A stretch of DNA of 64,000 nt from contig JBCAMK010000006.1 in the NCBI GenBank assembly GCA_038503065.1, forward strand, positions 558,001-622,000, given 5' to 3'. Below, one piece after another: positions 31,001 through 58,675 of the stretch. Under the pieces are notes generated by a model. That model searched no databases. It saw only the letters and a program-made list of their open reading frames with translations, and was not told where the DNA came from. Both the position numbers and the translations under genes were made by a program. This DNA is from Paragyromitra xinjiangensis (Eukaryota > Ascomycota > Pezizomycetes > Pezizales > Discinaceae). Within the stretch, counting starts at the first letter, position 1. Each line of letters opens with the position of its first letter.

Positions 31001-31043
31001 AATATTTGTAACGTTTGCGGCAATAAGGGCACTTAGTCGACAT
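28033..31043 (-). pseudogene. Plavaka-type transposase gene of ME2, with frame break(s)
   Basis: The N-terminus has a C2H2 finger (CPYCRKRYKYSTSFETHLREKH). Then in order come YYYRDPITCIRYLL, VYAPTMEYNSAGERMYGE, MHTADWWWETQ, PEGATVVPVICASDGTQLT with WPIYITIGNI, MDCADGHQRLCFPILCAWIA, KPDLLHNIYLGVLKHMMEW, KLHLLTHF-like HLLTHFCQHVERFGN with FSTDISELAHKEQI, and the end WLVNTRIDLRTWNELY. These are the landmarks of Plavaka transposases as I know them. A GT...AG intron fits between WWWETQ and NTLPEGAT, as at the same place in ME1. One base appears to be missing between ERMYGE and MHTADWWW (about 30317), and a second break lies near 30485. Other joins may be introns. Confidence 0.8.
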
Positions 31044-34499: not shown

Positions 34500-36414
34500 A
34501 TGTCATCTCACAAGCGAAGCTCCTCCAGAGCCTTTCCAGCATCCAAATCATCAGCTACAAAGAAAGCCAGGCTTGATCCTCCCCATCCAGATTATCTTGA
34601 GTTCAATGAGGGGACAACCGAAGAAGACGTTGATAGCAATGAAGATAGCCGCCAGGGCCTCCGTGAAGGCTCCGAGGAGTTTTCCGATATCGAGTTTCCT
34701 TTGGGGCAACGCACGCCCTGGATTCGGATGACGAACTCGGTGATCGTGAGAATGAAGAATATTTAACTTCGGAGGGCGAGGAGATGAAGACTATGAAGAA
34801 GTTGCTCCCCTCCTCCAAAGACATCGTATTACCACTAGCAAGCTAGGAAGGAAGAGATCGAGGAAAAGCTGTGCAGGTTTCGACGAAGGCTCTGGCAGCA
34901 ATCGAAGAAAGCCTCGGAGGTAATAGCTGCCTCTGATGTGCGGTTGCACGTTGTGAAGGTAGGAAGCACTCCCTTTTATTGACCCACGAGAACTGACGTG
35001 GCAGCATGGTAATCGGATCCCGCCTAAACTCTCGGCTAAAAGAGCTGGATCGAGAGCTCCTAGAAAGACTCCACAGAGCCACAGCAACCTTCGATTCTTC
35101 TGCTTCATCTCCTCCGACCCCCCCACCCCCCTCTCCATCCTCTCCAGTGTCCGATTCCAGCAATGAGAGTATCCCGGCCAGGCATGTAGGTCGCAGAAGT
35201 GTATCGAGGATTATGGGGCCAGCACAAATGGTTGTTGTGCATTGCGCAGAGCTCATGAAGCAGCATACACTGCTTCAGGAGCCTTTACCTTCTGCTGCCC
35301 GTCTGTTGGCCATAGTAACCGAACTCTGGAATAGGGCGAATGAAGAACTACTATTGAGTGTGATCATGTGCGTTGACAGCCAGGCTCAAGTGAATGCTCC
35401 ATCAACCTTCACGAGAGCCCTATAAGCCCCTGCTAACTACCAACATAATAGATAAAGAGTTTCCATTCTCGGGCCAGATCGCACTTGATTTATTTGATCA
35501 AGGAGAAGGTTGAGGCGGGGGTTCTATATAAGCTCCGTCAATGCACAAGTCGGGCGGAGATAGTTGCCAGAATCGAATATCTCCTGGAGAACGATAGGTT
35601 TTTAAGCCATTCCGACAACTACACAGTAAGTAGCACAAGCAATGCCCCAGAAGCTATCTGAATACTGCGACTTAGCCATTAGGACTGCTCATGCCGCTTT
35701 TGGGCGCCCGAAATCACAAGCGTCATATTCGCCAAATACTTCCAAGGGGTAAAGATGTTGGGTTCCAAAGATCCCGAATTCCTAGAAAGGATCAACCCAG
35801 TCTTCGTGTGTCTAGTAGCCACTGGGATATGGCACTGTTTGCGGGCTTGGAGCAGTGGGATCTATGTCAAGCCGGACGACTTCACAGGGAGTAATCAAAG
35901 CGTCATGCGTGAGTATCCCAAGAGCCATCTAGAGAGCTTGACTAAATCTCGTGATCACTCTAGGAACCTTCACGAGAATGATGAACACTTGGAGGAGTCC
36001 TAGCCTTGAAAATCAGCAGGGCACGATGGAGGTGTTGAAGGAACGGCTACGAATGCTGGTATGTACGATCCGGATTTATTTTTCCGCTTGCTGACTTTAT
36101 AGATTTCGAGGGCAAATGGTACCGAGGAAGTTATAGCTGTGGAAGCCTTCCGCGTAGATAATCTTGCTCTCACGAAAGCTCTGGAGGCCTTCCGAAGAGG
36201 AAAGACCACAATTCCTCCACCTACACCAAGCCGGGAGCGGTCTCCCACTCCAGATCATTCGGGATTGACACTCCTCGCACGGCTAGCAGGAGTAGAGACC
36301 TCGGCACCTTCAAATAGCGAGGGTGACGTGGAGGGAGGGGGAGGGGGAGAGGGAGAAACGGTGGATAGCAGCGAGGTTCAGGAGGAGGATAGAGAGGATG
36401 CTTTAAGGGACTAG
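34500..36414 (+). CDS. DUF6532-like protein of ME2 (multi-exon, borders partly resolved)
   Basis: It starts MSSHKRSSSRAFPASKSSAT with a KKAR basic patch and an acidic stretch. Exons then give MGPAQMVVVHCAELMKQHTL, SVI + RSHLIYLIKEKVEAGVLY, RIEYLLENDRFLSHSDNYT, and after a GTAAGT...AG intron (about 35625-35683) SVIFAKYFQGVKMLG, INPVFVCLVATGIWHCLRAW and SSGIYVKPDDFTG. This layout (helical N-part, then a W-x-x-G-x-x...F ending) matches DUF6532, a domain of unknown function found in fungal proteins. The matching gene in ME1 ends LATVAIRYALDNWSSGEY with FEGGTFKG. The end of the domain is firm; the region 34600-34980 has frame changes that I could not resolve. Confidence 0.65.
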
Positions 36415-36416
36415 GG

Positions 36417-36783
36417 GAATGCTTTGGGGGTTGTCGTGAAGACTATGGCTATTCAAGGTGAGCTCTTTGGGGGTGGCCAGGCACAGAATACCAGTGGCTT
36501 ATTCGCGAATCAAGGCAAAACCTTTGGTGCAGTAAGAGAGTTGGAGAATGCTTCGGGGGTTGTTATGAAGACTGCAGCAAGCGAATGGGCTCTTTGGGGG
36601 TGGCCAGGCACAGAATACCGGTGGCTTATTCGCGAATCAAGGCAAAACCTTTGGTACGGTAAGGGAGTTGGAGAATGCTTCGGGGGCTGTTATGAAGACT
36701 GTAGCAAGCGAATGGGCTCTTTGGAAGTGGTCAGGCACAGAATACCGGTGGCTTATTCGCGAATCAAGGCAAACCCTTTGGTG
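36417..36783 (+). repeat. Tandem repeat, about 128 bp x 3, in ME2
   Basis: Three head-to-tail copies begin at about 36417, 36546 and 36673, each with GAATGCTT(C/T)GGGGG and GGCTTATTCGCGAATCAAGG. It lies just past the DUF6532-like gene. The CGCGAA word and the position near the element's right end suggest a subterminal role. Confidence 0.85.
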
Positions 36784-37371
36784 CACAGGATATAGAGGAA
36801 TTGATAGTTCTTTTGTTGTAGCTAGTTGGTAATAGTAATAGCAGTAATATACGGAATATTTTCCACAAATCAAAGATCCCAATATAAGGATATGCAAGGA
36901 GGCTTCAGGAGCATTCACCAGGACGCAATAAGCTATCACCATGATTTCTAGCGAGGTCTTCAGACGCGGAGCTCAAATCAGGACTTTGGGAGGTAAAATT
37001 ATAGGCGTCTGACTGGATCCAGACACAATAGGCTCATCTTCACGAGTCCTCCGCAGAGCATCAGGGGTGTCAGATTAGCTCTGGGATACATATCAGTATC
37101 CTCCAGAGGTATCACGATTATTGCACAATATGATCAAGACGGACCAGAGGAGCTCCGGAGGCCTTCGCGAAAGCTTCAGGAGCTATCAGGATGGGTCAGG
37201 AAGCTATCAAAATAATGTCAGGATGCGTCCTGGCACACCAGGCACAGCGAACTTCCACCTGGCGCACCTGGCGCACGCAGCGTAATCTCCTGATCATTGA
37301 TTTCCGTCACAAGCGCTAGGGGCGCTAGGAGCGCCCTATACGTCTGACGGAATTGTGTGGTCTTGCTGATG
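36784..37371. other. Right subterminal region of ME2
   Basis: No gene is supported. It holds further GGAGCTCCGGAGGCCTTCGC and AGGAGCTATCAGG words and a run of CCTGGCGCACC/GGCGCTAGGAGCGCC repeats next to the terminal inverted repeat. Confidence 0.5.
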
Positions 37372-41212: not shown

Positions 41213-41974
41213 TAGCCTCGTATCATTATGTAGGCTCGAAAAAGATTAAATGTTTGAGAGAGCATAGCTCCACGGGTTTTCTTCCGATTGACTTGATTTT
41301 TGGAGCGTTGGAATCCCCTCTCATATATCCTCCAGGTCACGGTATGCTGGAAGGGCGCCGTTGACGACCTGAGGGTTATTTTTGGTCTTTGGGATGCGCT
41401 TTTTTGGCCCATGTCCCCCCTTCCCCCATACTAAGAGATGGGTGGATCATGAGGTAGCAATGGGGCCAAATAGGCCCCTCTGAAGCATGGAGAGGTTCTC
41501 TCCATGTGGCCTTGAGTTCTTGAACTCTGTGAGCTAGTTGAAGGATTGCTTGCGTCGGGTACAATGCACTTGCAACGTCAGTGGTTCGCTGAAGGGAGAA
41601 TTCCCTCAGGCGCAATCCAATCCCATTGTTTTGATTGTCCCCTACATTGGTTATCAGTAGTCTCATACTTAGTGCTCTCACAAATGCATAGGTCAATTCC
41701 TAATGCACCTGAGGTTCACGGTCGGATGACGGCCCGTCGGCCGTACCAGTCTTGATCACTATCTTTGAAGCGCTTATGCACCATGGGAAGGTAGGGTAAC
41801 TGCTTGGTAGCGAACCTGCAGTTACTTCCTTTCTCCAGCTAATGGTAGGGTAACAGGACCACCATTGTTACCCTGCAAGACAGGGTAACTGTCCTCCAAT
41901 AGCTCTAATGGTACACTCGACTAACTAATGTAGATCAAGACATGTAACGTACATGAAACCCCGTTACACCTGTA
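41213..41974. other. Non-coding stretch left of ME1
   Basis: No gene is supported. Several GGTAGGGTAAC and CAGGGTAAC words occur at 41795-41895. It ends ACCCCGTTACACCTGTA against ME1. The last six bases (CCTGTA) equal the R1 target sequence, but the R1 sequence expected before them is absent. Confidence 0.4.
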
Positions 41975-42264
41975 CGTCGCGAAAAGCTTGATTTGCTACC
42001 ACCCGCCTTTTGCGTGTTACCATAGCCTTTGACACGCTATGGTAACAAAAATAGGCGAAATAGGCGAAAACGACCAATCGAGCTTTTTAATGTCTATCAA
42101 GAGACAACCAAAAGCATATCCCATGTTTTTCATTTGCTTTGACCGTGCTTTTACCGTGCTTTCACCGTGCTTTCAATAAGCTTTGACAGCCAATAGGTAA
42201 ACTATCGAGACCTTTGGAAATGTAACTTGCGCGGCTCCTCGAAGCCATTCTGTAGATTCCCTGT

Positions 42265-42500
42265 ACGCGATGATAGTCCTCTAGGAGCATTCTTGTACGC
42301 TGTCAGAGTGAATTGGGGAGGCTTTGTGTACACTTCTGAGCGTGTGTTGGGAGGCTTTGTGTACGTGATGATAGTCTTTTGGGAGCGTTCTCGTACACTG
42401 TCAGAGGGAATTGGGGAAGCTTTGTATATGCTTCGGAGCGTGTTTTAGGAGGCTTCGTGTACGCGACGATAGTCTTCTGGGAGTGTTCTCAAATCTCTAA
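42265..42500 (+). repeat. Tandem repeat, 98 bp x about 2.5, left subterminal region of ME1
   Basis: The word GAYGATAGTC recurs at 42269, 42367 and 42465, giving an even 98-bp period. Units contain TGTCAGAG and CTTTGTGTAC words. It lies 290 bp inside the left end. Confidence 0.85.
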
Positions 42501-42935
42501 TTGTCATTTCGTATACTACTCTGACGCTGTCAAAGTGATACATTGTGCCCTTGGGAGATTATATTTATTTCTTCTATTCTCTGCTATCTTTATCTTTATC
42601 TTTATCTACGCTACGCTAATCTATGCTAATCTATGCTAATCTATCATTCTATTCTACGCTGTAATATACTTTCCCCTAAATCCCATTCCCATCAACAGCC
42701 GTCACCAGAATCATCGCTATCGTCCGCAAGCAAATCCACCTCCGGGTTCCACACCACCGCCGGTTTCCCTCCATCGCCAGTCTCCCATCCCGATAACCTT
42801 TTTACCTCCGTTAGTTGGATGCCGAGGAGAATTCGGTGGGTTTCTTTCGGTATTGTGTTCACTGATTGGTATACTCATCGTAGACCCCTTCGCCTTGCAA
42901 TCAGCTCTGATAATTGTACAATATCCCCCGTCGTG

Positions 42936-43013
42936 CAGACTCTGACGTGCAGACTCTGACATGCCGACTCTGACATGCCGACTCTGACGTTCCGACTCTG
43001 ACGTTCCGAATGG
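42936..43013 (-). repeat. 17-bp tandem units of the GTCAGAGT motif
   Basis: About five adjacent units of the type CGACTCTGACATGC (plus strand) are seen. This lies in the 3' part or a putative intron of the DUF6532-like gene and is the densest cluster of the ME1 motif on the left side. Confidence 0.85.
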
Positions 43014-43038
43014 ACACGGTATACACACAGGCTCACCT

Positions 43039-44641
43039 TTAAACGTCCCTCCTTCAAAGTTTTTCCTAAGATACTCCCCCGAAGACCAATTGTCAAGAGC
43101 GTACCGGATAGCTACTGTCGCCAAAACCAAGGCCACTGGGCTAATCTCGTCGCTATATTTTCGGGTGTGAGGTCGGCGTGCATATGTTTTTTGCCGTACC
43201 AAGCACCGTGAATTACATTAGCGATTGCGAAATGGCAAAACATTTTCTTCGGGACCTGTGTTCGGGTTAGCACTCTACTGTGATCTGAAGGACGAGCGGT
43301 TAAGGAAACTACTGGTAACTCGCCTTTTTCTTCTCATCCGAAAAGTGGAAACGATGACTGTTATCGCGTATAAGCCTACGAACGCGATTAAGGAGGTCGT
43401 CTCCCTTCAATGTATCAAGGCCGTACACCTTACAAACACACTCCCTAGCCGCTTCGGCAAAGTACCCTCGGGAGGTTGATATACGGTCTGCCAACTTTAT
43501 GCCAGAGCCTCAGTGTCAGCCTCCACTAACTGCGTACAGGAAAGGAAGGTTGATACCATGTGAATTTCGGTATCGCCGATCTCGCTGAGGTCGAATCGAT
43601 CGCCCGATTCCCCATACGCCTCTCGAAACACAGAAACAGCCATCATCTCCTGCACGTCTGGCCGGGGGTAGGGGTTTTCCGTCTGTATTCGTAGTACGAA
43701 TATATCTCTTGCAATTGACCAGTTGGGATTAAGCTCACCTCTATCCCTCAGTGTGCCTATTTTTCTCTTGTCCCGTGATCTTGCCTCACTAGGCGGGACC
43801 GAGCCTGACAGCGTCGAGGCCGACCTCCTTTTTCGGAAATTGCTGCCGGCATAGCTACCGCTCCCATTACTATCGTGTCCACTGCTTGAAGACAAATTGG
43901 AAACGGAGGACTATCAGTATGAGTAAGCCAATGTCAGAGTAAATGTCAGAGTTGAAGCCGATGCAGGATACATATCCTATTTGAAGGGGATAGCTTACGC
44001 CAGGTCCAATAGACTTCCTCACAGGCGGTTGAAATGGGGTCGGAGTTCTATTGGAAGAGTATAGCAAGTACGGCCCGGAAGAATCATCATCACTTCTAGT
44101 TGCCCCCAAGTCCTCAAAATCTCCTAGATCTGGGCTTTGCTGAATGCTGGGGAGCGGGGTCTGGGGAGTTAAGTCTAGCTCTCTCGGACTCCGCTGAGCA
44201 CAAGGCGGATGTTGTGTAGCGGTGACAGCACCTGGAGGAGACGATAGTATGCTCAGGGGGGCGGTTTGGGGTGTCGGGGAGGGGGGGGGAAGAGTAGGGG
44301 GAGGAGGTGGGGGAGTAGGGGGAGGAGGTGGCGGAGTAGGAGGAGGAGGAGGTGGCATGGTAGAAGGTTCGAAAGGAGTAGCTGGCACCAAAATGTTGGA
44401 ACTTGCGAGAACATCTGCCCCTCGTCGCCGCCGTGTCAGAGTCGTACTCTGACTGGCTGGCTGCCTGGCTGGCTGGTAGTGTCAGGGCAGTGGTGGCCCT
44501 TCGACGGGTCGACGGGTGACCACCCGATGGGTTTCTCGAAACTCTGCCACGTCTGCTGTCAGTATTTGTAGACGACGATGCAGCTGAATTACGCGTCTTT
44601 CGTTGTGTATCAGGGTATATTGCTTGACTTTTTGGAGGCAT
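43039..44641 (-). CDS. DUF6532-like protein of ME1 (multi-exon, one possible frame break)
   Basis: It starts MPPKSQAIYPDTQRKTRNS, a basic Ser/Arg-rich N-terminus. A polyproline block follows (coded around 44290-44355), then ELNPNWSIARDIFVLRIQTE with NPYPRPDVQEMMAVSVFREA, then STSRGYFAEAARECVCKVYG with LLNRVRRLIRDNSHRFHF, then CHFAIANVIHGAWYG, and SPVALVLATVAIRYALDNWS with FEGGTFKG. The order is that of DUF6532. Introns with GT...AG ends fit at about 44408-44453, 43919-44003 and 43498-43547, and they contain CTCTGAC words. A frame change near 43150 is either a break or a missed intron. The 3' end is uncertain. Confidence 0.6.
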
Positions 44642-45039
44642 GGCGAGGATGTTTAATACAAATACAATCAAGGGGGGGAAACAAGGGTGATGGGGCGAAA
44701 CAGGGGAGTGAAGGCAGTAATGCAAGGCTATGATGGTTGGTAGAAGAGGGAGAGGGATCGTAAGAAGAAAGGGGGATAGATAAAGGGGGATCCACGGTAC
44801 TGGGAGGCCTGAGACCCGCGGAGCTGGAAGGATCTGCGACGCTAGGCTCAAGTCGAATATCATGTCTTCTCACTCGAAAAAAACCTTCCTATTCCTCCCA
44901 ATAAATACAAATTTGCAGTACTCCGAGCCCGTCCCCATAGTAAAAGTAAACCCTCCGCCACATAATAAAGATAACCCATGGAAAAAACAGAAACGAAATA
45001 AAGAAAACCAAAAATATGGCCCCGATACTCGTGCCATAA

Positions 45040-45430
45040 CTATAGTAATATCCTGACAAAATAAGAAGGGAAACTGATACACGACGGCGCAACTCTGACA
45101 GAATAGGAGGTCTGACAAATATCGAGTCAGCCGCCTGTTTCGAGCTCATCGGGCTCCGGACAAAACTAGTAAGAAAACGAATACCCATATCCCCCCGATA
45201 CCCGTACCCGCAGCAGCACCCAGACAAAAGAAAAGAAAACCAATACCCTGTCCCCCGATACCCATCCCGTACCCATCCCGTACCCATCCCGTACCCATAG
45301 TAATACCCGAACAAAACAAGAAAGAAAACCAATACCCATATCCTAACCGGCGCAACTCTGACAGAATAGAAGTCTGACGAGTGCCGAGTCAGTCCTCTAT
45401 TTCGAGCTCATCTGGGCCCCCGCGTCCAAT
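45040..45430. repeat. Partial duplication of the helicase 3' end
   Basis: The stretch around 45083-45170 (CGGCGCAACTCTGACAGAATAG ... GAGCTCATCGGGC) repeats with changes at 45351-45420, where it covers the last codons of the helicase gene. It is probably a local tandem duplication. The spacer between holds CCCGTACCCATC repeats. Confidence 0.6.
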
Positions 45431-48400
45431 AATCTGGTCTCTTAAAACCGCTGGAGGTATCTTGCCGATCAACGTGTCAAAGACCTCGTCTGTGTCTGCT
45501 ATTCCCCCGAGGCTCTCCATAATTCCCCATGCATATAGCATAGGGCTCTGGCGCTCCCGCTGGGCCTTCTCGATCAATGTATCGATCGTTTGGAGATTAA
45601 CTAGACGCTCGGTGTTTTGCTCTTCCTTTTGCCCGATGCGGCGGACCCGACTCCATGCCTGATGCTCCGATGCATAGGAAAGACCTTGCTCTACCATGAT
45701 GGTATCCGAGCATTGATAGTGAAGATTGATGCCCTCGTTGCTGCAGAGATAGGAGAGGACCAGAACGTCGATGTCCTTGGTTTTATTGAATGAATCCTTT
45801 ATTTTGTCACGATTCTTATTGCTTAGACCACTGTAGACAGCGAAGCAGGTAATCCCGAGCAGTCGAACGTACTAGTTTTATGTTAGAACATGATCGAGCG
45901 ATTAAGAGATCAAGTGGGGCCGACGCCGACGCCAACACTGACGCTGACGCCAACACTGACACTGACGCTGACGCCAACACTGACACTGACACTGACACTG
46001 ACACTGACACTGACACTGACACTGACAGAAGGCTACTTACTTCTTGAATTAGCCATTGCGACAGAGGCCAATAGACCCACAATATAACCTTCTTCCCGCC
46101 CAAAGTGACCAATTCGTGCAATCGATCTTTGAGTCGACCCAATTTTGGACTGCAGAATTCCATTGCCCGGACCATATCCTCATCGCTCATGTTGGCCATA
46201 GATTCCGGGTAGAAATCTGTTCCCCTGTCCGGCATTTGCTCGCGGAACTTCGTCAGCAGAGATTTCACCTTCAAACGGTGTGGACGGCCTTCATCCGCCC
46301 GGTCCTTGCTGAATAAGTTCTCCGTGGAAAACTCCTCGGCAAAGGAAGCATAGGCAAGCAAAGGGGACAATGAAACCAAACGAATATAACGCCAACGGGG
46401 GCCAAATTTATGGCCTGGAATTGGCGCTTGCTGCCCTTCTGCTATTGACCTGCCAAAAGAAGCGCGTATTTGGGCATAATTGTCGACTAGGAAGGAATAA
46501 ACATCCTTGGATCCGTCATCTGCGAACTGCAGGCGAGTGGTGACAGTCTTCATGACGGGTATATCGATAATCGGCTTACCCACCCGAAACGGAATCCTGC
46601 TGACCATCGAGCGGCGGAGTATCAGAGTACGCAAAATCTCTTGCGCATATCCTCCCACTATCCGCAGGGAGTCTGACAAATGTTGCCGCTGGCTCGGGGT
46701 GATCATTCCTGTGCGCTGGAGGTGCTGCAACTTCGATGCATTATTGAGATTGCCCCAGATAAAGGCGTTCAGGCTTTTGTTGTGCAGTGGACATAAGAGC
46801 CATGTGCCTTATAATCCCGGAACGGATCTGCGACAGGAGTAAAGGCTGCATCCAGATTATTTCCGTCCTCGCCATTTGGGTCGATCAGGGTTTTGGAACC
46901 ACGCTCCTAACTCGATGTCGTGTTTATTGGCAAACGTATCTGGGGGCAGGTTGTCCGATAGCCACTCAGGCCGTTGTAGGAACCGACATACCCACCGGAG
47001 GTCTGACATGGTACTTACTAGAGGGGTGGCCGTTAACATCCATTTGGCCTCTGGATTTAGCGAGTCCAAATTTTTTGCCCACATTGCCATGGCATTGTTT
47101 GGGTCGCTGCGGGAAAGTAATCCTGTGGTGGGGCTAATGACGCCTGCTGGGGGGGCGCCGGACACTCGGAAGCGATGAGCTTCGTCGAGTACTAAACGCT
47201 TTGAAGAAGCAAGTCTTCAGTACCCCAAAATCTTCGGCCCCGGAAGTCCTTGGTGTTCCAACGTTTCATCAACGTTTCCTTTGTGGTAATGATGACATGG
47301 CGCCACGGGAATTTGCTGGCAGAGTTGATTTGGTGCCAAGCCCTCCTATCGAAAAAAGTGTTGCCGTAGTGGAGAATCGGAGTGAGTAGAGTGTTGCTAC
47401 GAATTGCCTCTTGCCATTCCGAAATCATTGGAACCGGACTAAAGATCACAAACGTCAGAGTCAGTACTGACAGTGTCAGAGTGAGTGTCAGAGTTATTGG
47501 TACCAGATTATCAACGTCGGTCCCATGAAGATCTTATCCGGGTTCCGGGGCTTCATATCTCCCTCCTTGAGTGTCCCTTCCCTTTTGGATCGTTCGTAGG
47601 TCCCGAGAGCCTGCTGGTAGAATTCCGTAGTCAAGTTTTGCTGGACCCGACGTGCTTCGTACTCATGAGCTTGAATACACAGTAGTCCCAGCAGTGTCAT
47701 TGTCTGGTTGGTCCGAGTCAGGAATAAGAAATAATATCAGAGTGATGTGGAACGGTTTGATTGAACACTTACTTTACCCGTGCCACAGTCATCAGCGAGG
47801 AGTCCCCCATATGCTAAACCCTCTTCCTTTTCCTTCATCCAATTGATGCCGATTATCTGGTGGTCCATAAATTTGAATGGAGGTTTGATCAATGGAAAAG
47901 CCCGTGTCGCCGGGTCTATGCCCAAGGCAGTGAACGACTCTTGGAGATTCTCCCTTTGGAAGATCTCGTTATCCAGGATTCTGTGCAACCTAAATTAAAC
48001 GCCGACTGTCAGAGTGTACTGTCAGAGTGGGTTGTCAGAGCATGACTCGTACCATTCAACACTAGCTGTATCTCCTTCGGCGTCATCGGGCCCTTCCTTC
48101 CGAGAATCATCTCCAGTCTCACCAAGAACTATTTTATCGAATGGAGCCCCGGCAATTAGATCAAAGTCGGCATCTGTGTTGATCAGAACCTTCGGCCTGG
48201 GTTTAACCTGGCTGTCAGGCCCGCCCCGGCCAATGCCGGTGAGACGCCGCGTGGGTTTCACTATTTCACCGATATCTGGTTCCGACTGCGAACTGGCCGA
48301 ATCTTCGCTGCTATCCGCCGGTGGGTTATCCCCCCTCCCCCCCCTCCCCCTTCCTCCCCCTTCCTCCTTCCCTTCCTCCCCCCCCCTCCCCTCCTTCTGC

Positions 48401-49982
48401 TTCCCCTTCCCTCCAGCTGCGCCCTGATCCTCCCCTCCCCTCCCTTCCTCCCTCTGCTTCCCCTTCCCTTCAGCTGCGCCCTGATCTTCTGTTTCATCCT
48501 CCATCGGGTCCTGCTCATCAATGGGTGTGGGTGTTCTAGCAGCCAGGCCTGATTGCCTAGCCGGGTTGCGCGCGGGGGATAGCGTCTCCTGGGGCCGGTC
48601 AGGCATTTCAACATCTTGATCTTCAGGAGCTTCGTTGCCAATGCGAAGGTTTGCCACTCTGCTGGTGGATCGCCGGAGGCTTTGGTCGGTCCTCTCCCTC
48701 TCCCTCTCCCTCTCCCTCTCCTCATTGTCTGCGGTATCGTTGTTTTCGTCCTGCGCTGCCGACTCTGACACTGACACATGGGGAGGTGCTGGGGCTGGAG
48801 CTGGAGCTTGTGGAGCGGTCGTGAGTGATACCATTAAGATCCCCATGCGGCTAGCATTGGATACAGCAAACTCCCAATCCGCCTCTGTAAGCTCATAATC
48901 GTCCAGATCAAACTTCGGTTGCGGTGATGGCGTGGTGCTGGCCAAGTACTGAGCGACTCGTAACCCAAGGAAAGATAGGCCATATTCGGTCTCTACCCAG
49001 CGCTCGAAGTCACCCCAGTACTGCAGGCGGCGTTGGATGTTTGCCTGAAACTTTAGGGCGCTCCTTTTCGGCACTTCCGGTGGGTGATTATCCCATACCA
49101 TTTGAAGATCGACTCGTTTCTCAATCGTGGGTTCCGGATCTCCACGGTCTTCCACTCGAATCCTGCTGCGTGGTGGGCTCCCAGAGTCTCGCTGGGATGG
49201 AGCTGTACGGGCTGCAGGGACGGCATCGCGCCTTGCCAAAGTTCGAGACCGAGAAGTACTCCTAGCACCAGTGCTTCTTCTAGCACCGACCTGGGTCGAA
49301 GGAGAGGCTTGAGAGGTAGAAGGGGCCCGGGTTGCTGGCCTTCTCGCACTTGAGGTGGCGGTCGAAGGAGTGGCAGACGAAGAAGAAGTGCCTGCGGTTG
49401 CTGATCGTCGAGATGCCCTTGGAGTAGTAGCTACAGAAGCCGGAGCTGGAGCCGCTGGCCGTCTCGGGGTGGCAGCCGGGGTGCCGCCACTGCGTACGGC
49501 CTGCCGAGCAGCACAGCCTAGAACCCGATGGGCATCGCGAATATCGTTGAGAACTACGGGGTCATTGGGACCAACAGCAAAAAAAACCCGAGCACCATCG
49601 ACTAGGCCCTCGAGTATGGTCATATATTCCTATTTATATCAAGAGATGTCAGAGTGTGCGATGTCAGAGATAACCGATGTCAGAGTACGTGATGTCAGAG
49701 TGGGTGTTTAGATTGATATACCTGAAGTTTTCCCACAGGTTGCTGGCCGGCGGGGACAATATTCCTTGTGGTAACTTGCGCTAGTGAAGGCGACTGAGCA
49801 GTGGCATACTTCGTCTTCCATGCTACTAGCTCTGAAACGGCATCGGTAACAGCATCTGAGCCGAGAAATTCCTGCGTCTCCGACTTGTCCAACTTAAAGG
49901 CAGTTCTCACATTTTCGACGGTATAATTAGATGCGGCTATCGGCCACTCTCGAATATTACCACCTGCTTGTGCCATTGTCAA
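45389..49982 (-). CDS. SNF2-family helicase/ATPase cargo gene of ME1 (multi-exon)
   Basis: The SNF2 motifs appear in order: HQIIGINWMKEKEEG (Q-like), GGLLADDCGTGK|TMTLLGLL (motif I, across an intron), TLIICPVPMISEW (Ia), LVLDEAHRFR (II, DEAH), WMLTATPLVS (III), and in the C-terminal lobe GITCFAVYSG, VLVLSYLCSNEGINLHYQ and WSRVRRIGQ (V/VI). The long N-terminal part (48022-49629) is disordered and rich in Ser/Thr/Arg/Glu. Introns 49630-49721, 47990-48052, 47704-47772 and about 47437-47511 keep phase, and all but the 47704 one are packed with CTCTGAC words. Frame changes near 47205 and 46800 are either breaks or unresolved introns. SNF2 proteins remodel chromatin using ATP. As transposon cargo it could open chromatin at donor or target sites; that is inference. 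Confidence 0.75.
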
Positions 49983-50470
49983 GTCGCTATCAGAGTAGGT
50001 ATGCTAGTGCTGTCAAAGAAGTCGCTTGGGTGGAGGACTCGGATAGGCGAGTATAGACTTGCAGCTAGCCGGGCGAGCGGTCTCTTTATATACATAGCGG
50101 GGTATAGTCCTCTGACGTTGATTGTTCGATGTCTCTGATGCCCAAATGCTGCTTCCCGAGATTGCAAGGGTGGTGGTGGTTGTGGTGGTGGTGGTAGTGG
50201 TGGTGGTAGTGATGGCGAGGCGGAAGCGGAGGTTGAGGTTGCTGTGTTTGTTCAATGACGTTGGCGGCTGGTCTAGCCAGGTTAGGTGCTTCCGGCTGCA
50301 GCCTCGTTTCCCGATTCGGCTTATCCCTTTAACAAGCAAACAAAGGCAGTCAACAGCCACCAACGAATCTGACCTACAATCCAGCTTATATACGTCCGCC
50401 CAGATCTCACCACGTCAGAGTTAGAGTCGGTTGGTGTCAGTGTCAGTGTCAGTGTCAGAGCTAGAACCCT
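49983..50470. promoter_or_regulatory. Divergent promoter region between helicase and transposase of ME1
   Basis: The two genes point away from each other across about 490 bp. It contains a (GGTGGT)n microsatellite (50170-50213) and a cluster TCAGAGTTAGAGTCGG with repeated GTGTCA (50416-50460). The ME1 motif next to both starts suggests binding sites for a regulator or the transposase; that is inference. Confidence 0.5.
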
Positions 50471-53392
50471 TTGTTTTTGCTTCGTTTGTTTGATTGTCTA
50501 ACTTCAAGCAGCGATCCCGCCGCCCTTTCAATGCCCTCTGGACTGGATTTTCTTTGTGGAATCTGCGGAAAGTCCTTTGTTAGCCCAGGTGGCTTGACTG
50601 TCCATCATCGTCGAACTCACAATAAGCAGTCCCGAGATCGTGTAAGGTTCGATGAAGACGACGCGGACAATAGCTGTCCCGGACAGGAGGAGGAGGAGGA
50701 GGAGGAGGGTGCGCCCCGAAGACCAGATACTTTTCCTGATGCGGGCATCGCTCTACCATGCCCACCAGTAACTCATCCATGTGATAGCCCCGATTGGCAT
50801 CCTTTGTTTCCTTTCGAATCAAAGTTACAATGGGACTTCTGCCGTACCCATGTAGAGGAGAATACGGGAAAGGCCGCCCTGGATCGTATGATACGTCGTG
50901 GAATATTCAATGATAAGATCAATATTAAAAGTGCCGATCATTTCCGCGAGTTGATACATGCTATGGATGACGGACTTGACTGCGAATGGATGGAGGGTAC
51001 GGTTAATATCGAAGGTGAAGAGGTGGAATACTGGTATCGAGATCCAATGGCAATCCTAAGATATCTTTTCGGCCACCTACCTTTCAAAGACCACTTGACT
51101 TATTCTCCGATAAAGGATTATGGTTCCGACGGCAAACGATTATATTCTGAGATGTGGACAGGCAACTGGTGGTGGCGGCAACAGGTAAAAGCCCTTCTAG
51201 TCTCGGCTCCCTGACTCTGACACTGACACTGACACTGACACTGACACTGACACCGATGTTTATATTGACTTCGAACTAGGAGAACGCTCCCAAGGGGGCA
51301 ACGATTGCACCGATTATTATCGGTAGCGACAAAACAATGCTATCCACATTGAGCGGTGATAAGAGTGCATGGCCAGTATATATGTGGGGTGGAAACGTCG
51401 CGAAAAGAAACGACGAGCCGTCAGAATGAATGGGTTGGTCTTGCTTGGAATCCTCCCTAAAATCCCAAAGAACCCAGCAAGAGAAACGACGAGAAAGACC
51501 TTTCACGAGGCAATCCGGCAGATGTTGCGCCCTTTTGAATCCACAGGCCAGGAAGGGGCAGATGTCGTTTGTGCAGACGGATATACAAGGAAAGTCTTTC
51601 CCCGCATCGCGACATGGATAGCCGATTACCCAGAAATGGTCACTCTGACATTGGTAAAGTCTATGTGGTGCCCTAGGTGCGAATGCACCCCCGACAACTT
51701 AAGTACTCTGACTGGGGTCCCGCCTACCCCCAGGGATCCCACCCGCTATGCTCTAATGTCGACAGCGGAGCTCGAAGCCGTAGGGCAGTGGAGATTTGAT
51801 TTCGAAAACTTTGCCGCCCACCACGTTCACTGCAATATCTATCATGCAATCAATCCAGACCGGCTTCATCAATTACTCAAGGGCGTCCTGAAGGACCATA
51901 CATGGAAGTGGGTATGTACATATCTCGTACAGGAGCATGGACCACACGTCATCGCGGAGATTGATCAGCGGTTCGCAGAGATACCCCTGTTTAGTGATCT
52001 GAAGAACTTCGGTCACAAATTTTCCCAGATTTCTCAGTGGACGGGGCAGAATACAAGCACATGCTGAAGGTGTGGATCGGGGTCTTAGCACCATTTTTTA
52101 AAAGACGACCGGAGCACTTGAGATGTCTGAAACATCTTACTGAATTCATTATGTTTGCCGGCTATCACTCCCATACAGAGAACACCCTGGAAATGATGGA
52201 TAAAGCAATGGCGGGCTACGAGTCTCTTTTGGGGAACTTCGTGGAATCCAGGGACTCTGGAAACTTTGACCGCATACCAAAGCTTCACATGATGCGCCAT
52301 TACACCGAGAGTATACGCGACTTCGGATCATGTGACAACTCTGACACAGAGCAAAGTGAAGCCGCGCATTCCTGGATGATCAAAGAGGCCTATCGATCAA
52401 CGAACAAGGTAAAGCCGCTTTTGCAAATGCTAAGATGGGAGGATAGATTGTTCAAACTTAAAGCACGAACCGCGCTGCTGCAACATCTGATAAAGACCGG
52501 CTCACGATGGGCAACAGTCTGTTTATCTCTTGTGGATGAGTTACGAGTCGGTCGGAAAGAAAGGAAAACTGTCATAAGTGGGCATATTCCCAAGCAAGTT
52601 TTGATGGGAAAACTGCAGCTACCGCGCCACATCAACGTGTCAGCGTCAGAGTTGACGCCCACGTCAGAGCTGGCCCCCACGCCAGAGCCGCCCCCCACGT
52701 CAGAGCTGGCGCCCACGTCAGAGTTGGCGCCCACGTCAGAGTTGGCGTCCGCGTCAGAGTTGCTGAAGCTTGTACGGGATTATCTCTTTACAATCCAATC
52801 CGGGGCGAACACTAGTTATCATTTGACACAATATCGAAGCAGTATCCCCTGGATTGCAGCACAAAAGGTTACGATGGGCACAGGAGTGGTGGCCAGCTTC
52901 CCTTCTCACAACGACCCCGAGGAATTCTGCACAGAATTTGCGCGATGTGTGACCGATTGGAGGGGAGATGGCTCCCGGTACGACCACGTCCTCATTCAAA
53001 CAGAGCCTGGGGTTAGTGGGCCTAACCAGAGCTACTTCAATGAGACTGGCTTGAAGCCGGCAGAGCTCATTTGTGTTTTCACCTTCATCGACAAGGTCCC
53101 CGATGGAAATAAAGACAACGGTCGTCCAAAGTTTCGCAAAATAGGCCACGAACTGGCGTTGGTGGAATATCTGACTGTGATGAATGCCGGTAGGCCTAAC
53201 CCAAACAGCGGCATGATAGAAGTCCGTAAACAATCGGAGCTATCGGATACCGGAGTCACGACAAAGCGGAGAATTATTCCAGTGAGCCGTATATCCCGTG
53301 CTGTTCACCTCATCGCTGCAGAAGCAGGCAAAAAAGGGCGATATTTCATCAACAACTACATCGATCTAGAGATGTTTAACACGGTTTATTAG
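50471..53392 (+). pseudogene. Plavaka-type transposase gene of ME1, with two apparent frame breaks
   Basis: The likely start is Met at 50531 (MPSGLDFLCGICGKSF, C2H2 finger CGIC...H...H). Then follow EYWYRDPMAILRYLFG, DGKRLYSEMWTGNWWWRQQ, an intron at 51185-51279 (95 nt, with a CTGACA repeat inside), ENAPKGATIAPIIIGSDKT, SGDKSAWPVYM, ADGYTRKVFPRIATWIADYP, INPDRLHQLLKGVLKDHTW, KLHMMRHYTESIRDFG, DTEQSEAAHSWMIKEAYRST, and the end YFINNYIDLEMFNTVY. The order equals that of ME2. One-base shifts are needed at about 51410 (after GGNVAKR) and about 52040 (at WTG|AEYKHM), so this copy is probably dead unless these are sequence errors. Residues 200-239 of the last block carry a (PTSELA)n repeat coded by GTCAGAG words. 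Confidence 0.8.
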
Positions 53393-53401
53393 GCAAGGTC
53401 G

Positions 53402-53490
53402 GCATTAGAGGGTCGGTGTCAGAGGGTCGGTGTCAGAGTGTTGGTGTCAGAGTTGGTGTCAGAGTGTTGGTGTCAGAGGCGAAGTCCGAG
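53402..53490 (+). repeat. GTCAGAGT motif cluster after the transposase
   Basis: Five or six copies of GGTGTCAGAG(T/G) in under 90 bp follow the transposase stop. It directly precedes the ubiquitin-fragment array. Confidence 0.85.
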
Positions 53491-54360
53491 TGTGTCGAGA
53501 TTGAGGACAACAAAGAGGGAATTCCTCCAGACCAGCAGCGTCTCATTTTCGACGGCAAGCTAGGCTACTCAGAAGGAGTCGACTTTGCACTTGGTCCTTA
53601 GTCTTCGTGGTGGTTCCCAGTAGATCGGATGGCAACTGCAGGACGCGATTACGGGAAATGTTTTCATATTCATGTTGGATGAGAACAAGGAAGGCATTCC
53701 TCCAGACCAGCAGCGTCCCATTTTCGACGGCAAGCTAGGCTACTCAGAAGGAGTCGACTTTGCACTTGGTCCTTAGCCTTCGTGGTGGTTCCCAGTAGAT
53801 CGGATGGCACTGCAGGACGCGATTATGGGAAATGTTTTCATATTCATGTTGGATGAGAACAAGGAAGGCATTCCCCCAGACCAGCAGCGTCTCATTTTCG
53901 ACGGCAAGCTAGGCTACTCAGAAGGAGTCGACTTTGCACTTGGTCCTTAGTCTTCGTGGCGGTTCCCAGTAGATCAGATGGCAACCGCAGGACGCGATTA
54001 CGGGAAATGTTTTCATATTCATGTTGGATGAGAACAAGGAAGGCATTCCTCCAGACCAGCAGCGTCTCATTTTCGACGGCAAGCTAGGCTACTCAGAAGG
54101 AGTCGACTTTGCACTTGGTCCTCAGTCTTCGTGGCGGTTCCTAGTAGATTAGATGGCACTGCAGGACGCGATTACGGGAAATGTTTTCATATTCATGTTG
54201 GATGAGAACAAGGAAGGCATTCCTCCAGACCAGCAGCGTCTCATTTTCGACGGCAAGCTAGGCCACCCAGAAGGAGTCGACTTTGCACTTGGTCCTTAGT
54301 CTTCGTGGCGGTTCCCAGTAGATCAGATGGCAACCGCAGGACGTTATTACAGGGAATTTT
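53491..54360 (+). repeat. Five 174-bp tandem repeats carrying a ubiquitin fragment
   Basis: The word CCAGACCAGCAGCG recurs at 53528, 53702, 53876, 54051 and 54225, an even 174-175 bp period. Each unit translates to NKEGIPPDQQR(L/P)IFDGK, which matches ubiquitin residues from about Lys29 to Lys48 (known: DKEGIPPDQQRLIFAGK). After that the frame reads LGYSEGVDFALGP and a stop, which is not ubiquitin. Only a piece of ubiquitin is present, so no unit can code for working ubiquitin, and it lacks the C-terminal GG. It is best read as a captured host-gene fragment that became a tandem array near the right end of ME1. Confidence 0.85.
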
Positions 54361-54429
54361 TTCATATTCATGTTGGATTAGGATAGGTCTTTAGCTAGTA
54401 CTTGGGGTGTTTCTGTTTCTTGTGGCATA

Positions 54430-54840
54430 CTGGTAGCGAACATAGCGAAAGCACGTCTAGTAGCGAATCAAAGGACTTAAACTAGCAAACATAGCGAAAG
54501 CACGTAAAATAGTAGGCATGTCAGAGTTAGTGGTAGCAAAATGGTAGACATGTCAGAGTTAGCAGTAGAGTGCACGGATATTAGCGAGCATAGTAAAAGC
54601 CCGCGGTAGCAAAGGTAGCAAAATGGTAGACATGTCAGAGTTAGCGGTAGAGTGCACGGATATTAGCGAGCATGGTGAAAGCCCGCGGTAGCAAAGGTAG
54701 CAAAATGGTAGACATGTCAGAGTTGCACAGATATTAGCAAGCCCGGTGAAAGCCCATGGTAGCAATGGTAGCAAAATGGTGGGCACGTCAGAGTGGGTGG
54801 TAGAGTGCACGGATATTGGCGGGCATCGCGAAAGACCATG
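54430..54840 (+). repeat. Tandem repeat, about 82 bp x 4, right subterminal region of ME1
   Basis: GCACGGATATTAGCGAGCAT-type starts lie at 54572, 54654, 54725 and 54807. Units hold GTCAGAGT and GGTAGCAAAATGGTAG words. The array lies 200-600 bp from the right terminal inverted repeat, as a mirror of the left tandem at 42265. Confidence 0.85.
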
Positions 54841-55045
54841 AAAGGAGAGCTAACACACAAAGCCTCCCGAAAGTATACGGGAAGGCTACGAGATTGCTCG
54901 CTAAAGGCGCCATGCGCTTTGAGAGACTACCAAAAGCACGGATATGCTATGGGAGGCGTGTGGTAGGACCCATATGTTAGGCGAGGCTACCGGAAATTGC
55001 TAAATTTTACCGCGGCCTACGACTTTTTTGGGGCTTTTCGCGACG

Positions 55046-55610
55046 TAGCAGATCTCCAATGACATCAAATACATAGAAATACAGTTGAGTTCCTAATCCA
55101 CCTGTGCATGCTCTATCAGCTATGGCTGATAGGTGGCGCAACTGGGAGAACTATTCTAGCGGACACCTGATGCAACTATGGACTGATCAGCACCATGCAA
55201 GTAGTCCTGCAAGACTAGGTTGGTAGATTATAGAGTCCTGACTGGTAGAGCAGTACATGTGGAGCAGTTGCACATGAAGTGCAGAACTCCAGTGGAATGT
55301 GAGAGAACACTTCCAAAGGGACCTGCCCATGATCACTGACAGGATTCAGGGTAAACTGGATCCCCCATATGAGTAGAACTGAGTAGAGGCGGTGAGCATG
55401 CAGTACTACAAGTACTGGCAAGCCCCACCACCAGTTGCTCTTCTCCATCTTCAACCAGAGACCTAGTGACAAGAATTACTAAGTTCCACCCTGAAGATTA
55501 TTGAGTATACTGCATGAAAATACTTTAAGATCTCAGCCTGACTTTAGTATAAGCAACGGCTGTTTTCCTACCTAGCCTTAGCTGTTGTCTAGAGGACCAC
55601 CCCTGTTACA
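55046..55610 (+). mobile_element. Solo LTR R1c, missing its first 168 bp
   Basis: From the TA next to ME1 to the ACCCCTGTTACA end there are 565 bp, the same as in R1a/R1b counted from the same TA. The left 168 bp should lie on the other side of ME1 but are absent there. It is therefore cut by ME1 plus a later deletion or recombination. It abuts the gypsy element's leader. Confidence 0.85.
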
Positions 55611-56067
55611 CCTCGAATAACACCGCATTCTGATAAGGTAAATATTTTGATAGGAAATCCTGAGTAGATAGAATAATCCCTTTAAACACCGAGCATGAGA
55701 TCCCTATAGTGGGGGCATCCTTATAAATCGAATCCTTGATTGTAATTATGAATAGTTGATAGCTTTTGTGTGCGCACAATAAGCACGATCTTGTTATTAG
55801 GAGCCATGGGTGCCATATCTTAAATACGAACTCAGCCATTATTGCAAGGAGCTAGACTAGATCAAAGGTTAGGGTTGAAGGATGATGTCATCCATAGAGA
55901 CTAGCTAGTATAAAGAGAGGAGCTCGAGTCACAAGCTCCCTTCTCTCTTCATCATCAATACATCTAATCATACAATAACCCTCTCCTATATTGGTAGCAA
56001 CTAAAACGTAAGATCCGGACCCCTTTTTCATCATCATCATAGCCCTTTTCTCTCTACTACCCAAACG
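55611..56067 (+). promoter_or_regulatory. 5' LTR remnant and leader of the Ty3/gypsy element
   Basis: A TATA word (AGTATAAAGAG) is near 55909, followed by CT-rich sequence. TGGTAGCAAC at 55992 could be a primer-binding site for an initiator-Met-like tRNA, but the LTR/PBS border does not show the usual CA. The LTR's left end is missing because R1c lies there. Confidence 0.5.
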
Positions 56068-57702
56068 ATGAGCACACCAGAAATCCTGATGCATGACGTC
56101 AGCATCGACTACACCACCCCCTGGGACCAGCGAACTGAAGAGTTCAACAACAAATGTGCAACAATCATCGAGAGAGGGCTACCAGCCACAGCAGACAACC
56201 AAACCCTTGAGATGGTCGAAGCCCTTAAGGACTGTGCTGGGGAGATGCAATACGCACTGAACCAAACAATCAACACCCAATCCGCTGAGATAGAGAGACT
56301 CAAGAAGCTGGGAAATGATGAAGTACGTATGCAGACATCAGCAATCACTGAAGCAGTGAAAAGAGAAGAAGCGGAGATCAGGGAGTCGTTCAAAAACGAG
56401 CTAGAGAAGAGGAGAGAAGTAGAGAAGGTTTTGAGGGAGACCCTCGAAGCCAGCAAGCAGGAATCACAAGCCCTTCGTAACCAACTGGAATTCGCCAAAC
56501 AAAGAGAATCCTCGATCACTGAGTTACGAGAGCAAATAGCAGCAAGTGAAGCAACAGTAGCTTCACTGAAATACGCCCTACAGTGTAGCAACAACACCAT
56601 AGGCGGAACGAGACCCACGCGAGTTGGGATGTTCACCCTCAAACCTGGAAGCCTAACGTGCTACTATGGCGAGAAAGTAGCAGAAAAAGCTTATTCATGG
56701 ATCGAAGCGGCAGAAAGAGTTTTCACCTCCCGAGCCCACGAAACCATGACATCAGAAAGCACTGATCGATGGGGAATATACACAATCGATTACCTGAAAG
56801 GACCAGCATTTGAATGGGCTCAACTCCAATGGCCACTCAAGCATCACGAGCCGAACTCGTCCAACCCCCCAGGACAGAGGATAACATACACGGTAGACTG
56901 GGAAGAATTCAAGGAAGAATTCATCCACCAGCATGTTCCAGCAGATGCAATCGCAGTACTTCAGAAACGTTTCGAAGAACTAGCCGTGACAGGTTCCATC
57001 AAGGACTTCAATGAAAAATTCAGATTGCTCAGAATGCGTCTTCGAGTAGCAACAGACGAACCCCCCCTAAACCTCGTCAACCACACCACCGAAAACGCAA
57101 TGGAACTCAACCGAACCATCAGAGCAAACGTGGAAGCACCTTTCGTCACCACCTATGGCCTGAAACTTCAGAAAGCTGGAGAAGCGGAGTTCAAACGGGG
57201 AAACAGTAATGGCCCGATGGCCAAAGTCTACCTCGAATTTTCAAAGATGAAAATAGACTATGCACGTAAGGTACCCCCGTACATACCCACACTGGAAGAC
57301 GTGATGGGGTACATGGAAACCATGGACAACGTGATCAATCATAGAAATATCATGACCAACACCATGACTACGAGCGGCATAAGCAGTTTCACCCCGAATA
57401 CAGCCACGAACACTACGCTCTCCACAACAACCATGAACCCATCTGCCATCGATACAATGGACTGGGAGGCATCAAGATTGGAGACACAGAGTGTTCAACT
57501 CCTCACAATGTTCGAAAAGGCCCTTTCAAAGGTCTCGGACAATCGTCCAAGGTGTTACCACTGCAAGAAAGCAGGGCACTTGGAGAGAGACTGTTGGAAA
57601 CTGAACGGGTTACCAGATTGGATTAAAGATAAGGAGAAGAAGAAAGAAGGAGGGGGGAAGGAGCAAGGAAGAATGCTTCGTTCAAAACTACTGAAACGGT
57701 AG
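56068..57702 (+). CDS. Gag polyprotein of the Ty3/gypsy element, 544 aa
   Basis: The start is ATG 56068. Residues 70-180 form a long coiled coil (EIERLKKL, EEAEIRESFKNELEKRREVE). Residues 200-380 are the gag capsid-like region (MFTLKPGSLTCYYGEK, YLKGPAFEWAQLQW, FKEEFIHQHVPADAIAVLQK). Residues 496-509 are a zinc knuckle CYHCKKAGHLERDC (CX2CX4HX4C). It ends TAG at 57700-57702. Pol follows in the +1 frame with an overlap of only a few bases, so pol is probably made by a +1 shift or re-initiation. Gag binds the RNA genome and forms the particle. Confidence 0.9.
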   Translation: MSTPEILMHDVSIDYTTPWDQRTEEFNNKCATIIERGLPATADNQTLEMVEALKDCAGEMQYALNQTINTQSAEIERLKKLGNDEVRMQTSAITEAVKREEAEIRESFKNELEKRREVEKVLRETLEASKQESQALRNQLEFAKQRESSITELREQIAASEATVASLKYALQCSNNTIGGTRPTRVGMFTLKPGSLTCYYGEKVAEKAYSWIEAAERVFTSRAHETMTSESTDRWGIYTIDYLKGPAFEWAQLQWPLKHHEPNSSNPPGQRITYTVDWEEFKEEFIHQHVPADAIAVLQKRFEELAVTGSIKDFNEKFRLLRMRLRVATDEPPLNLVNHTTENAMELNRTIRANVEAPFVTTYGLKLQKAGEAEFKRGNSNGPMAKVYLEFSKMKIDYARKVPPYIPTLEDVMGYMETMDNVINHRNIMTNTMTTSGISSFTPNTATNTTLSTTTMNPSAIDTMDWEASRLETQSVQLLTMFEKALSKVSDNRPRCYHCKKAGHLERDCWKLNGLPDWIKDKEKKKEGGGKEQGRMLRSKLLKR

Positions 57703-58675
57703 TGGCGGAGGAACAAAAAAACTAGATAGGACCGGAGATGCTGCCGCACCGGTCCAAGACCGACGGTTGGAAGAAAAGGAGGACCCAATTGATAAAGAGC
57801 ATGCTAGAAGACTTGATTTGCTAAATGCGAACATTGTAAGTAAAAATGAGCTAGATTTGTTGCGAATTGCGGGTCATACTCTTGTTTCATCGTCAGAAAA
57901 GGCAGTGAAGAGACACTCTCTACTGGATAATAGAGTAGTGCAAGAAGATGGTGTGTTATGGCGAAGGAAAGCGCGAGGCCAAAGAAAAAGAATATGGAAA
58001 AAGAAAGCCTACATCCTAAAGGATGATGGAGCCAGTGAAAATTTTGTATCAAATAATTATGTCAAGAAACTAATTGCAGATGGAGCAGAAGTCGAAATAA
58101 GAGACGAAGGGTGGATGACGGTAAGGACAGCTAGGGAACAAGCTGGACCCATCCCCAGAGAGAGAAGAAGAAGAGCCCAGTTAGAAGTGTCTTTGGGCAA
58201 CGGATCAGGCTACTCATACTCATCGTGGTTTACCATATTCGAAATTGACAGATACGACATAGTGTTAGGAAAACGTTGGATGAGAGACATCAACGAACGC
58301 CACGAAATCGATCATATCAACAACATCATGCGAATATGGAACTCAAAAGAAGCGAGATTCAACCATGAAGCACCACATGAGATCACGGGCCTACGCCCAG
58401 GAGAGAGCCCCCGAGCAGAAGACAGAGAGAACATGCGGAAACTAGCAGCCAGCCAGGGCGTAGACCTCTGCTGGATGAAAGAACTGTTGTCAAGTGAGAG
58501 AGAAGTTGGACAAGAAAACTCAAGTCCCGAGGAAGAGACACCACCACCTAAGAAGCTAGGAAAGAAAAGACGCCTTCGAAACCTCAAGAAAGCGTTCCTT
58601 TTCTACGTCCGAATAGCAAGAGGAGACATCTCGACAGCGGATGGAGAACTTGAGCCTGAAACAGAAGTGCAATGA
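57701..58675 (+). CDS. Protease part of pol, Ty3/gypsy
   Basis: The frame is open from about 57695; the first ATG is at 57767. Around 58020 it reads ILKDDGASENFVSNNYVKKL, the aspartic-protease site, but with DDG where retropepsins usually have DSG or DTG. Later IDRYDIVLGKRWMRDIN matches the second conserved block (ILGxxWL). The frame ends in TGA (58673-58675), and the same frame then runs on without a stop into RT. Confidence 0.8.
   Translation, partial: SGGGTKKLDRTGDAAAPVQDRRLEEKEDPIDKEHARRLDLLNANIVSKNELDLLRIAGHTLVSSSEKAVKRHSLLDNRVVQEDGVLWRRKARGQRKRIWKKKAYILKDDGASENFVSNNYVKKLIADGAEVEIRDEGWMTVRTAREQAGPIPRERRRRAQLEVSLGNGSGYSYSSWFTIFEIDRYDIVLGKRWMRDINERHEIDHINNIMRIWNSKEARFNHEAPHEITGLRPGESPRAEDRENMRKLAASQGVDLCWMKELLSSEREVGQENSSPEEETPPPKKLGKKRRLRNLKKAFLFYVRIARGDISTADGELEPETEVQ

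Follow-up and report, generated by a model that had tools for sequence, protein, structure and literature searches.

A Plavaka-type DNA transposon of Paragyromitra xinjiangensis with a RAD5-like SNF2 gene where the second Plavaka gene usually stands and a clade-specific motif in its noncoding DNA

Why should a fungal DNA transposon carry a gene for a SNF2-family ATPase? The question is raised by a stretch of 64,000 nucleotides from Paragyromitra xinjiangensis (contig JBCAMK010000006.1, positions 558,001 to 622,000; hereafter the window, with position 1 its first letter), in which positions 41975-55045 are a Plavaka-type DNA transposon of 13,071 base pairs (bp) with exact 13-bp ends. The initial annotation had described a cargo-carrying element with 13-bp inverted ends, TA flanks, and genes for a DUF6532 protein, a SNF2 ATPase and a Plavaka transposase between them, a combination that it thought might be an undescribed architecture. 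Comparison of the copies in the genome shows that the element belongs to a mobile family whose SNF2 gene is under constraint and which has a short motif specific to its clade. The element carries two of the usual Plavaka genes, a transposase with a C2H2 finger and a DUF6532 gene, together with a RAD5-like SNF2 gene in the place of the second gene, and its ends are common to a set of short derivatives.

The limits of the element follow from its ends and from full-length identity to eight other copies. The sequence CGTCGCGAAAAGC stands at 41975-41987 (+) and 55033-55045 (-), and the inverted-repeat part of the ends is limited to these 13 bp. Across the genome (48.2 Mb in 22 contigs, after which the copies are named, the window copy being C6), CGTCGCGAAAAGC is found at 34 places, against 2 for the reversed pattern used as a control. 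Twenty of these places are the ends of ten long elements (C6, C1 2668605, C5 1268220, C11 213126, C14 1130154, C17 897967, C17 967445, C3 655238, C1 2001602 and C1 2004272, the last nested within C1 2001602), eight are the ends of four short elements, and six are single. Among the single places, three lie in short elements with one altered base at the opposite end, one belongs to a long copy truncated within the 10 kb examined, one runs into a contig end, and one, at C17:1471216, shows no further likeness to the element within the 10 kb examined. A fragment of the right end lies at C3:3640487-3642346, less than 2 kb from the end of contig C3. Eight copies align with the window copy from end to end at 94.8-99.4% identity in aligned columns, the greater length of the longer ones being due to insertions of about 1.7 to 6.6 kb, whereas the outer C1 element, the tenth, retains little of its middle. 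The seven short derivatives (1.8-2.6 kb) are similar to one another, share about 200 bp with the long copies at one end (92-95%) and about 175 bp at the other (73-74%), and gave no match to the element's proteins. Copies of one element family are not independent of one another, so p-values calculated from them are overstated.

The window copy is flanked by TA on both sides (41973-41974 and 55046-55047), and identical 2-bp flanks border 14 of the 17 long and short elements (TA in six, CA in two, AT in two, and TT, CG, GG and TG in one each). A fixed TA target was rejected: the duplication varies in sequence between copies, and TA is simply the one at the window copy. The initially proposed ends stand. 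The three elements without a duplication are C17a, C17b and C11s. The two long copies on C17 (897667-910975 and 967145-980470) lie 57 kb apart in opposite orientation and have no target duplications. One left flank ends in CC and the other in GG, a pattern for which inversion between the two copies would account, but the right flanks are at odds with it. Empty sites were sought, as had been suggested. A repeat to the left of the element contains the empty site of the short derivative C17s (41933-41970, +), with a single TA instead of the two at the filled site, and a few single-base differences. For the window copy itself the candidates are one-sided: among 40 of 116 candidates that were scored, 37 other places match its right flank and continue past the junction for 3-6 bp, which is consistent with an empty site. 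The right-flank repeat (55046-58675), within whose first bases the element is inserted, matches at least 37 further places, includes a gag-like frame at 56005 and is probably a long terminal repeat retrotransposon.

All three genes were recovered between the ends by their Pfam domains, with exon coordinates that are approximate; substitution phasing proved too noisy to locate exons by itself. The transposase gene (50531-53392, +) has two exons, 50531-51184, with a C2H2 finger that scores slightly below the Pfam cut-off and the start of the Plavaka domain, and 51280-53392; the intron splits the Plavaka domain (PF18759), which the two exons of the window copy match at E=1.7e-18 and 1.6e-37. Head to head with it lies the SNF2 gene (45389-49976, -), with six exons at 49722-49976, 48053-49629, 47773-47989, 47504-47703, 46041-47438 and 45389-45871. 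Its product has a long N-terminus followed by both ATPase lobes with motifs I (GTGKT), II (DEAH) and VI (RIGQ), and matches SNF2_N and Helicase_C (E=2.5e-23 and 4.1e-6) on a composite query, the window copy matching in pieces. Domains and motifs place it in the SNF2 ATPase family, and remodeling or translocation activity is predicted. Its best solved relative is RAD5, also of the SNF2 family (PDB 6l8n; E=8e-14 by sequence, E=4e-17 by profile), from which it differs in that no RING domain was seen in the part scanned and the bulk of the N-terminus ahead of the ATPase is without a Pfam match. The DUF6532 gene (42692-44641, -; exons near 43993-44641, 43495-43897, from 43030, and 42692-42896) was mapped from copy C5, whose joined exons match the domain at E=2e-22. 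A small protein at C19:222400-224000 (L048) resembles part of the SNF2 N-terminus (35%, E=2e-7); all Plavaka matches listed for C19 are over 60 kb distant from it.

The three genes have stayed together as the element spread, as had been proposed for a repeated mobile element. At 60% identity or more by tblastn, both transposase exons are present in all ten long copies and DUF6532 in all ten (74-433 of 445 residues); SNF2 is present in nine (741-1374 of 1376 residues), the tenth keeping 87 residues. We looked for the two outcomes that would speak against such an element, namely ends shared by no other copy and helicase and DUF6532 genes absent from the other copies, and neither occurred. An intact copy was also sought, and none has been demonstrated to be intact in all genes. 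The window copy is decayed, its SNF2 frame being lost in two stretches that are kept open in five other copies and its transposase exon 2 being frameshifted and split across two frames. Exon 2 of the transposase is an open frame of 710 residues in C3 and of 698 residues in the outer C1 element, and SNF2 exon 5 is open in seven loci (C14, C22, C3, two on C17, C13 and C11 1433000). The ratio of nonsynonymous to synonymous substitution rates (dN/dS) of the transposase is 0.19-0.21 between subfamilies and 0.29 within one, and that of SNF2 is 0.32-0.37 in six between-subfamily pairs over 460 codons, which indicates purifying selection on SNF2 between subfamilies.

Is the SNF2 gene cargo, and is DUF6532? 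After removal of neighboring pieces, the genome yielded 99 Plavaka rows (from 125, 26 pieces removed) and 83 DUF6532 rows (from 88, five second pieces removed). Of these DUF6532 loci, 58 have a Plavaka domain within 10 kb, in divergent orientation in 49 cases; 48 have one within 7 kb (41 divergent, mostly 4.0-5.5 kb apart), and eight are more than 60 kb from any. Because so many loci adjoin Plavaka domains, DUF6532 was rejected as special cargo and drops out of the unusual combination that had been proposed: it is a common companion of Plavaka transposases across the genome. The ordinary Plavaka element here has three genes, transposase, a middle gene (gene 2) and DUF6532, as seen in locus L041 and in its relative at window positions 28260-36795, the latter with transposase (-), gene 2 (+) and DUF6532 (+) and every frame broken. 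Gene 2 (for example L041:2988-4406, -) encodes a proline-rich tail and has no Pfam match above the cut-off. Its 73 matches merge into 61 loci, 42 of which lie within 7 kb of both transposase and DUF6532. When the SNF2 places, entered as 12 loci, were compared with these, the 53 divergent transposase-DUF6532 pairs within 9 kb held gene 2 between them in 40 cases, SNF2 in five, neither in eight and both in none; SNF2 therefore occupies the slot of the usual middle gene. Descent of the SNF2 N-terminus from gene 2 is unsupported (BLASTP E=0.04 over 36 residues; profile comparison probability 0.1%). DUF6532, a domain without known function and found in the literature searched, as far as its passages were available, in one paper, within a list of domains, thus gains a context as a usual partner gene of Plavaka transposons in this genome, whose Plavaka elements are three-gene transposons with an exchangeable middle gene.

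The pairing of SNF2 with this transposase is seen again in a diverged sister element. Of 44 SNF2 matches listed in the genome, 40 fall in 12 loci of this element family or in one sister region, and the other four are host matches with 26-36% identity. In the sister, on contig C6, the transposase (1423059-1426034) is 53, 73 and 52% identical in three pieces, and SNF2, from 1430357, is 32-60% identical in five pieces and stands head to head with the transposase, as in the window element. The C-terminus of the sister SNF2 is inverted at 1468131-1469407, and copies of the right-flank repeat lie in opposite orientation near both break points, which suggests that the sister region (C6:1421903-1474000, L038-L040) was split by an inversion between flank-repeat copies. 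Neither a DUF6532 match nor the ends of the sister element were found in the stretches of it that were examined.

Wider relatives were sought in outside protein searches that each scored only about 8000 candidates. SNF2 relatives of 34-59% identity came from metagenomes and from Trichophaea hybrida; transposase relatives came from metagenomes (36-42%) and Geopyxis carbonaria (34-43%), with weaker ones in basidiomycetes. In a tree of 26 transposases, in which the sister row covers 45% of the columns, the element and its sister pair (100/100) within a clade of eight (100/100) that also includes Geopyxis and four metagenome sequences and is set apart from the named basidiomycete sequences and from the ordinary element L041. 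Relatives in viral contigs were also considered, and none of 23 pattern matches was confirmed.

The second distinguishing feature of the family lies in its noncoding DNA. The commonest 9-mer of the element, ACTCTGACA/TGTCAGAGT, occurs 26 times and is absent from the rest of the window, and ACTCTGAC occurs 39 times in the element against once in the other 50,929 bases of the window (300 shuffles: mean 0.48, maximum 3). By the approximate exons, 29 of the 39 fall in 4,506 noncoding bases and 10 in 8,565 coding bases, four of the latter forming an in-frame repeat in the transposase. The motif is present in six of the eight introns of the three genes, in both intergenic stretches and in both subterminal regions, with eight of the 39 near the right end. 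SNF2 intron 1 (49630-49721, -) holds an array of four TCTGACATC units, of which different copies have 3, 4 or 5; SNF2 intron 4 (47439-47503, -) holds three ACTCTGAC, and the last DUF6532 intron (42897-43029, -) five, on the strand opposite to that in the SNF2 introns. The region between the transposase and the right end contains about five tandem copies of a 175-bp repeat (53503-54381), and 82-bp tandem repeats with TGTCAGAGT follow near the right end (54532-54837); an Rfam scan of the window gave no match.

Counts of ACTCTGAC range from 23 to 42 in the eight aligned copies and from 2 to 6 in each short derivative. In the sister region there are 16 in 14 kb, largely as runs of TCTGAC, and 3 in another 10 kb, against a single one in 9 kb and none in 8.5 kb in two ordinary Plavaka elements of one family. 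Paired motifs were found at 201 places genome-wide, compared with 7 for the reversed control; with four exceptions, the places listed read as this element family, its short derivatives or the sister region. By these counts, and with the two ordinary Plavaka elements as its control, ACTCTGAC appears to be a clade-specific short motif of noncoding DNA.

What might a SNF2 motor and a private motif do together? The reading that we tentatively favor, though we would stop short of calling it probable, is self-directed anti-silencing, in which a protein of the element would read ACTCTGAC and direct the SNF2 motor to the element's own chromatin. The protein binding the arrays in noncoding DNA could be the transposase through its C2H2 finger, DUF6532 or the SNF2 N-terminus; once bound, it would bring the motor to the element's own copies, the motor would remodel or clear silent chromatin there, and the element's genes could then be expressed and its ends reached. 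The mode of action would be like that of the VANC anti-silencing proteins of Arabidopsis VANDAL elements, with the difference that the element would have its own motor. We favor this reading because SNF2 is kept in nine of ten long copies, has a dN/dS of 0.32-0.37 in the six between-subfamily pairs and recurs, with the order of the genes unchanged, in a sister of 32-73% protein identity; because ACTCTGAC is enriched in noncoding DNA, varies in unit number between copies and is enriched in the sister and not in two ordinary Plavaka elements; and because the anatomy of the motif resembles that of VANC targets. C-to-T changes among the copies are about 2.5 times as frequent at CpG as in other C contexts, and cytosine-5 methyltransferase-like domains occur at three loci in the genome, so that silencing of the element by methylation is plausible. 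In its fullest form, a self-targeting module in which a dedicated SNF2 motor has replaced the second gene, is aimed by a clade-specific ACTCTGAC code in intron, intergenic and subterminal DNA, and is a convergent counterpart of plant VANC, the proposal is doubtful. Were self-directed anti-silencing correct, a transposon would bring its own ATP-driven chromatin remodeler, self-addressed by a short DNA code, and such anti-silencing would become testable in fungi.

Several observations weigh against self-directed anti-silencing. The mechanism is drawn from sequence, the reader of ACTCTGAC is a candidate, and VANC is not an SNF2 protein. The spliced SNF2 reading has internal stops or exons missed by the search patterns in all nine copies, none being stop-free, and therefore either the gene model is imperfect or no copy examined is intact. 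Speaking against constraint on the gene, SNF2 dN/dS is 0.59 for the pair C14-C3, from three changes, and 0.76-1.05 in pairs that include the decayed frames of C5 or of the window copy. ACTCTGAC is missing from two of the eight introns, ten of its 39 occurrences are coding, the core TCTGAC stays at or below the shuffled maximum in two of the seven short derivatives, and the motif control is limited to two ordinary Plavaka elements of one family. Some of these points are shared by the reading of SNF2 as passive cargo, a host gene captured by chance, which would fit the decay of its frames in some copies, including the window's, the high ratios in the decayed pairs, and the near-complete loss of the gene in one long copy. 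That reading is unlikely, and the least credible of those considered, given purifying selection on SNF2 between subfamilies, its old pairing with the transposase in the sister, and host SNF2 genes of low identity; together with its place in the gene 2 slot, these make the SNF2 gene a poor fit to the cargo that it was first taken for.

Rather improbable, too, is that the arrays have no binding role and are slippage products in unconstrained DNA, perhaps favored in introns, where CTGAC agrees with the branch-point consensus, and that SNF2 is an accessory gene serving some unrelated purpose. Several arrays are simple tandem repeats, those of the sister being mostly TCTGAC runs, and the motif also builds a repeat within the transposase frame; yet in the last DUF6532 intron it runs antisense to the gene, it occurs outside introns as well, and paired motifs number 201 against 7 for the control, nearly all of those listed being in this family, its short derivatives or the sister region. 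The main rival, not far behind self-directed anti-silencing and a serious though lesser possibility, casts SNF2 as a transposition or repair factor, a RAD5-like translocase acting on the transposase-DNA complex or in repair of the donor gap, and the motifs as transposase binding sites, such as the subterminal repeats of CACTA elements are. The repair protein RAD5 as best solved relative, the motifs near the right end and the presence of the motif in short derivatives that keep the ends alone are consistent with such a role, and in the passages available the SNF2 helicases of the transposons Inton and Enton are named as potential participants in transposition (PMC3627910), which also counts against self-directed anti-silencing. 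However, the majority of the motifs are internal, in introns and between genes and distant from the ends, and in about 40 ordinary Plavaka pairs of this genome it is gene 2, with no SNF2, that separates the two genes.

The closest described relatives are the PlavakaA and PlavakaB groups defined by Kojima 2025 (PMC12730594), with which, as far as the available parts of that paper go, the window element shares the Plavaka transposase domain. Like PlavakaA it makes 2-bp target duplications (here in 14 of 17 elements), and it differs in its termini, CGT..ACG in the ten long copies against TGT..ACA in PlavakaA, one base apart, two short copies having TGT at one end; the PlavakaB termini CATCA..TGATG are not those of this family. 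Some PlavakaB elements carry TET/JBP, a parallel as a chromatin-linked accessory gene in whose place SNF2 is found here. As an accessory gene of the present family TET/JBP was rejected, none of the four TET/JBP matches in the genome lying at its copies. The words SNF2 and DUF6532 are absent from the main text of PMC12730594 as available, no paper in the literature searched contains both SNF2 and Plavaka, and no SNF2-bearing Plavaka element was found there, judged from listings and passages. To that extent the architecture may be undescribed, as first suggested; a SNF2 gene in a DNA transposon is not unprecedented, because Inton and Enton encode SNF2 helicases (PMC3627910, in the passages available). 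The likeness to those elements, by description and not by sequence, is that of a SNF2 helicase beside a transposase in a DNA transposon.

VANDAL21 belongs to another transposon superfamily and another host kingdom than the window element, and the likeness to its VANC21 protein may extend to a possible mode of action, with no relationship of the proteins claimed. In the published passages available, binding and loss of methylation were shown for VANDAL21, and the window element is known from its sequence. The nine-base motif bound by VANC21 lies in introns and in intergenic and terminal noncoding DNA, where it has accumulated through tandem repeats that differ between related elements (PMC5735166, PMC10398659). 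The window element resembles this system in its arrays of a short motif in introns, intergenic and terminal noncoding DNA, with a number of units that varies between copies.

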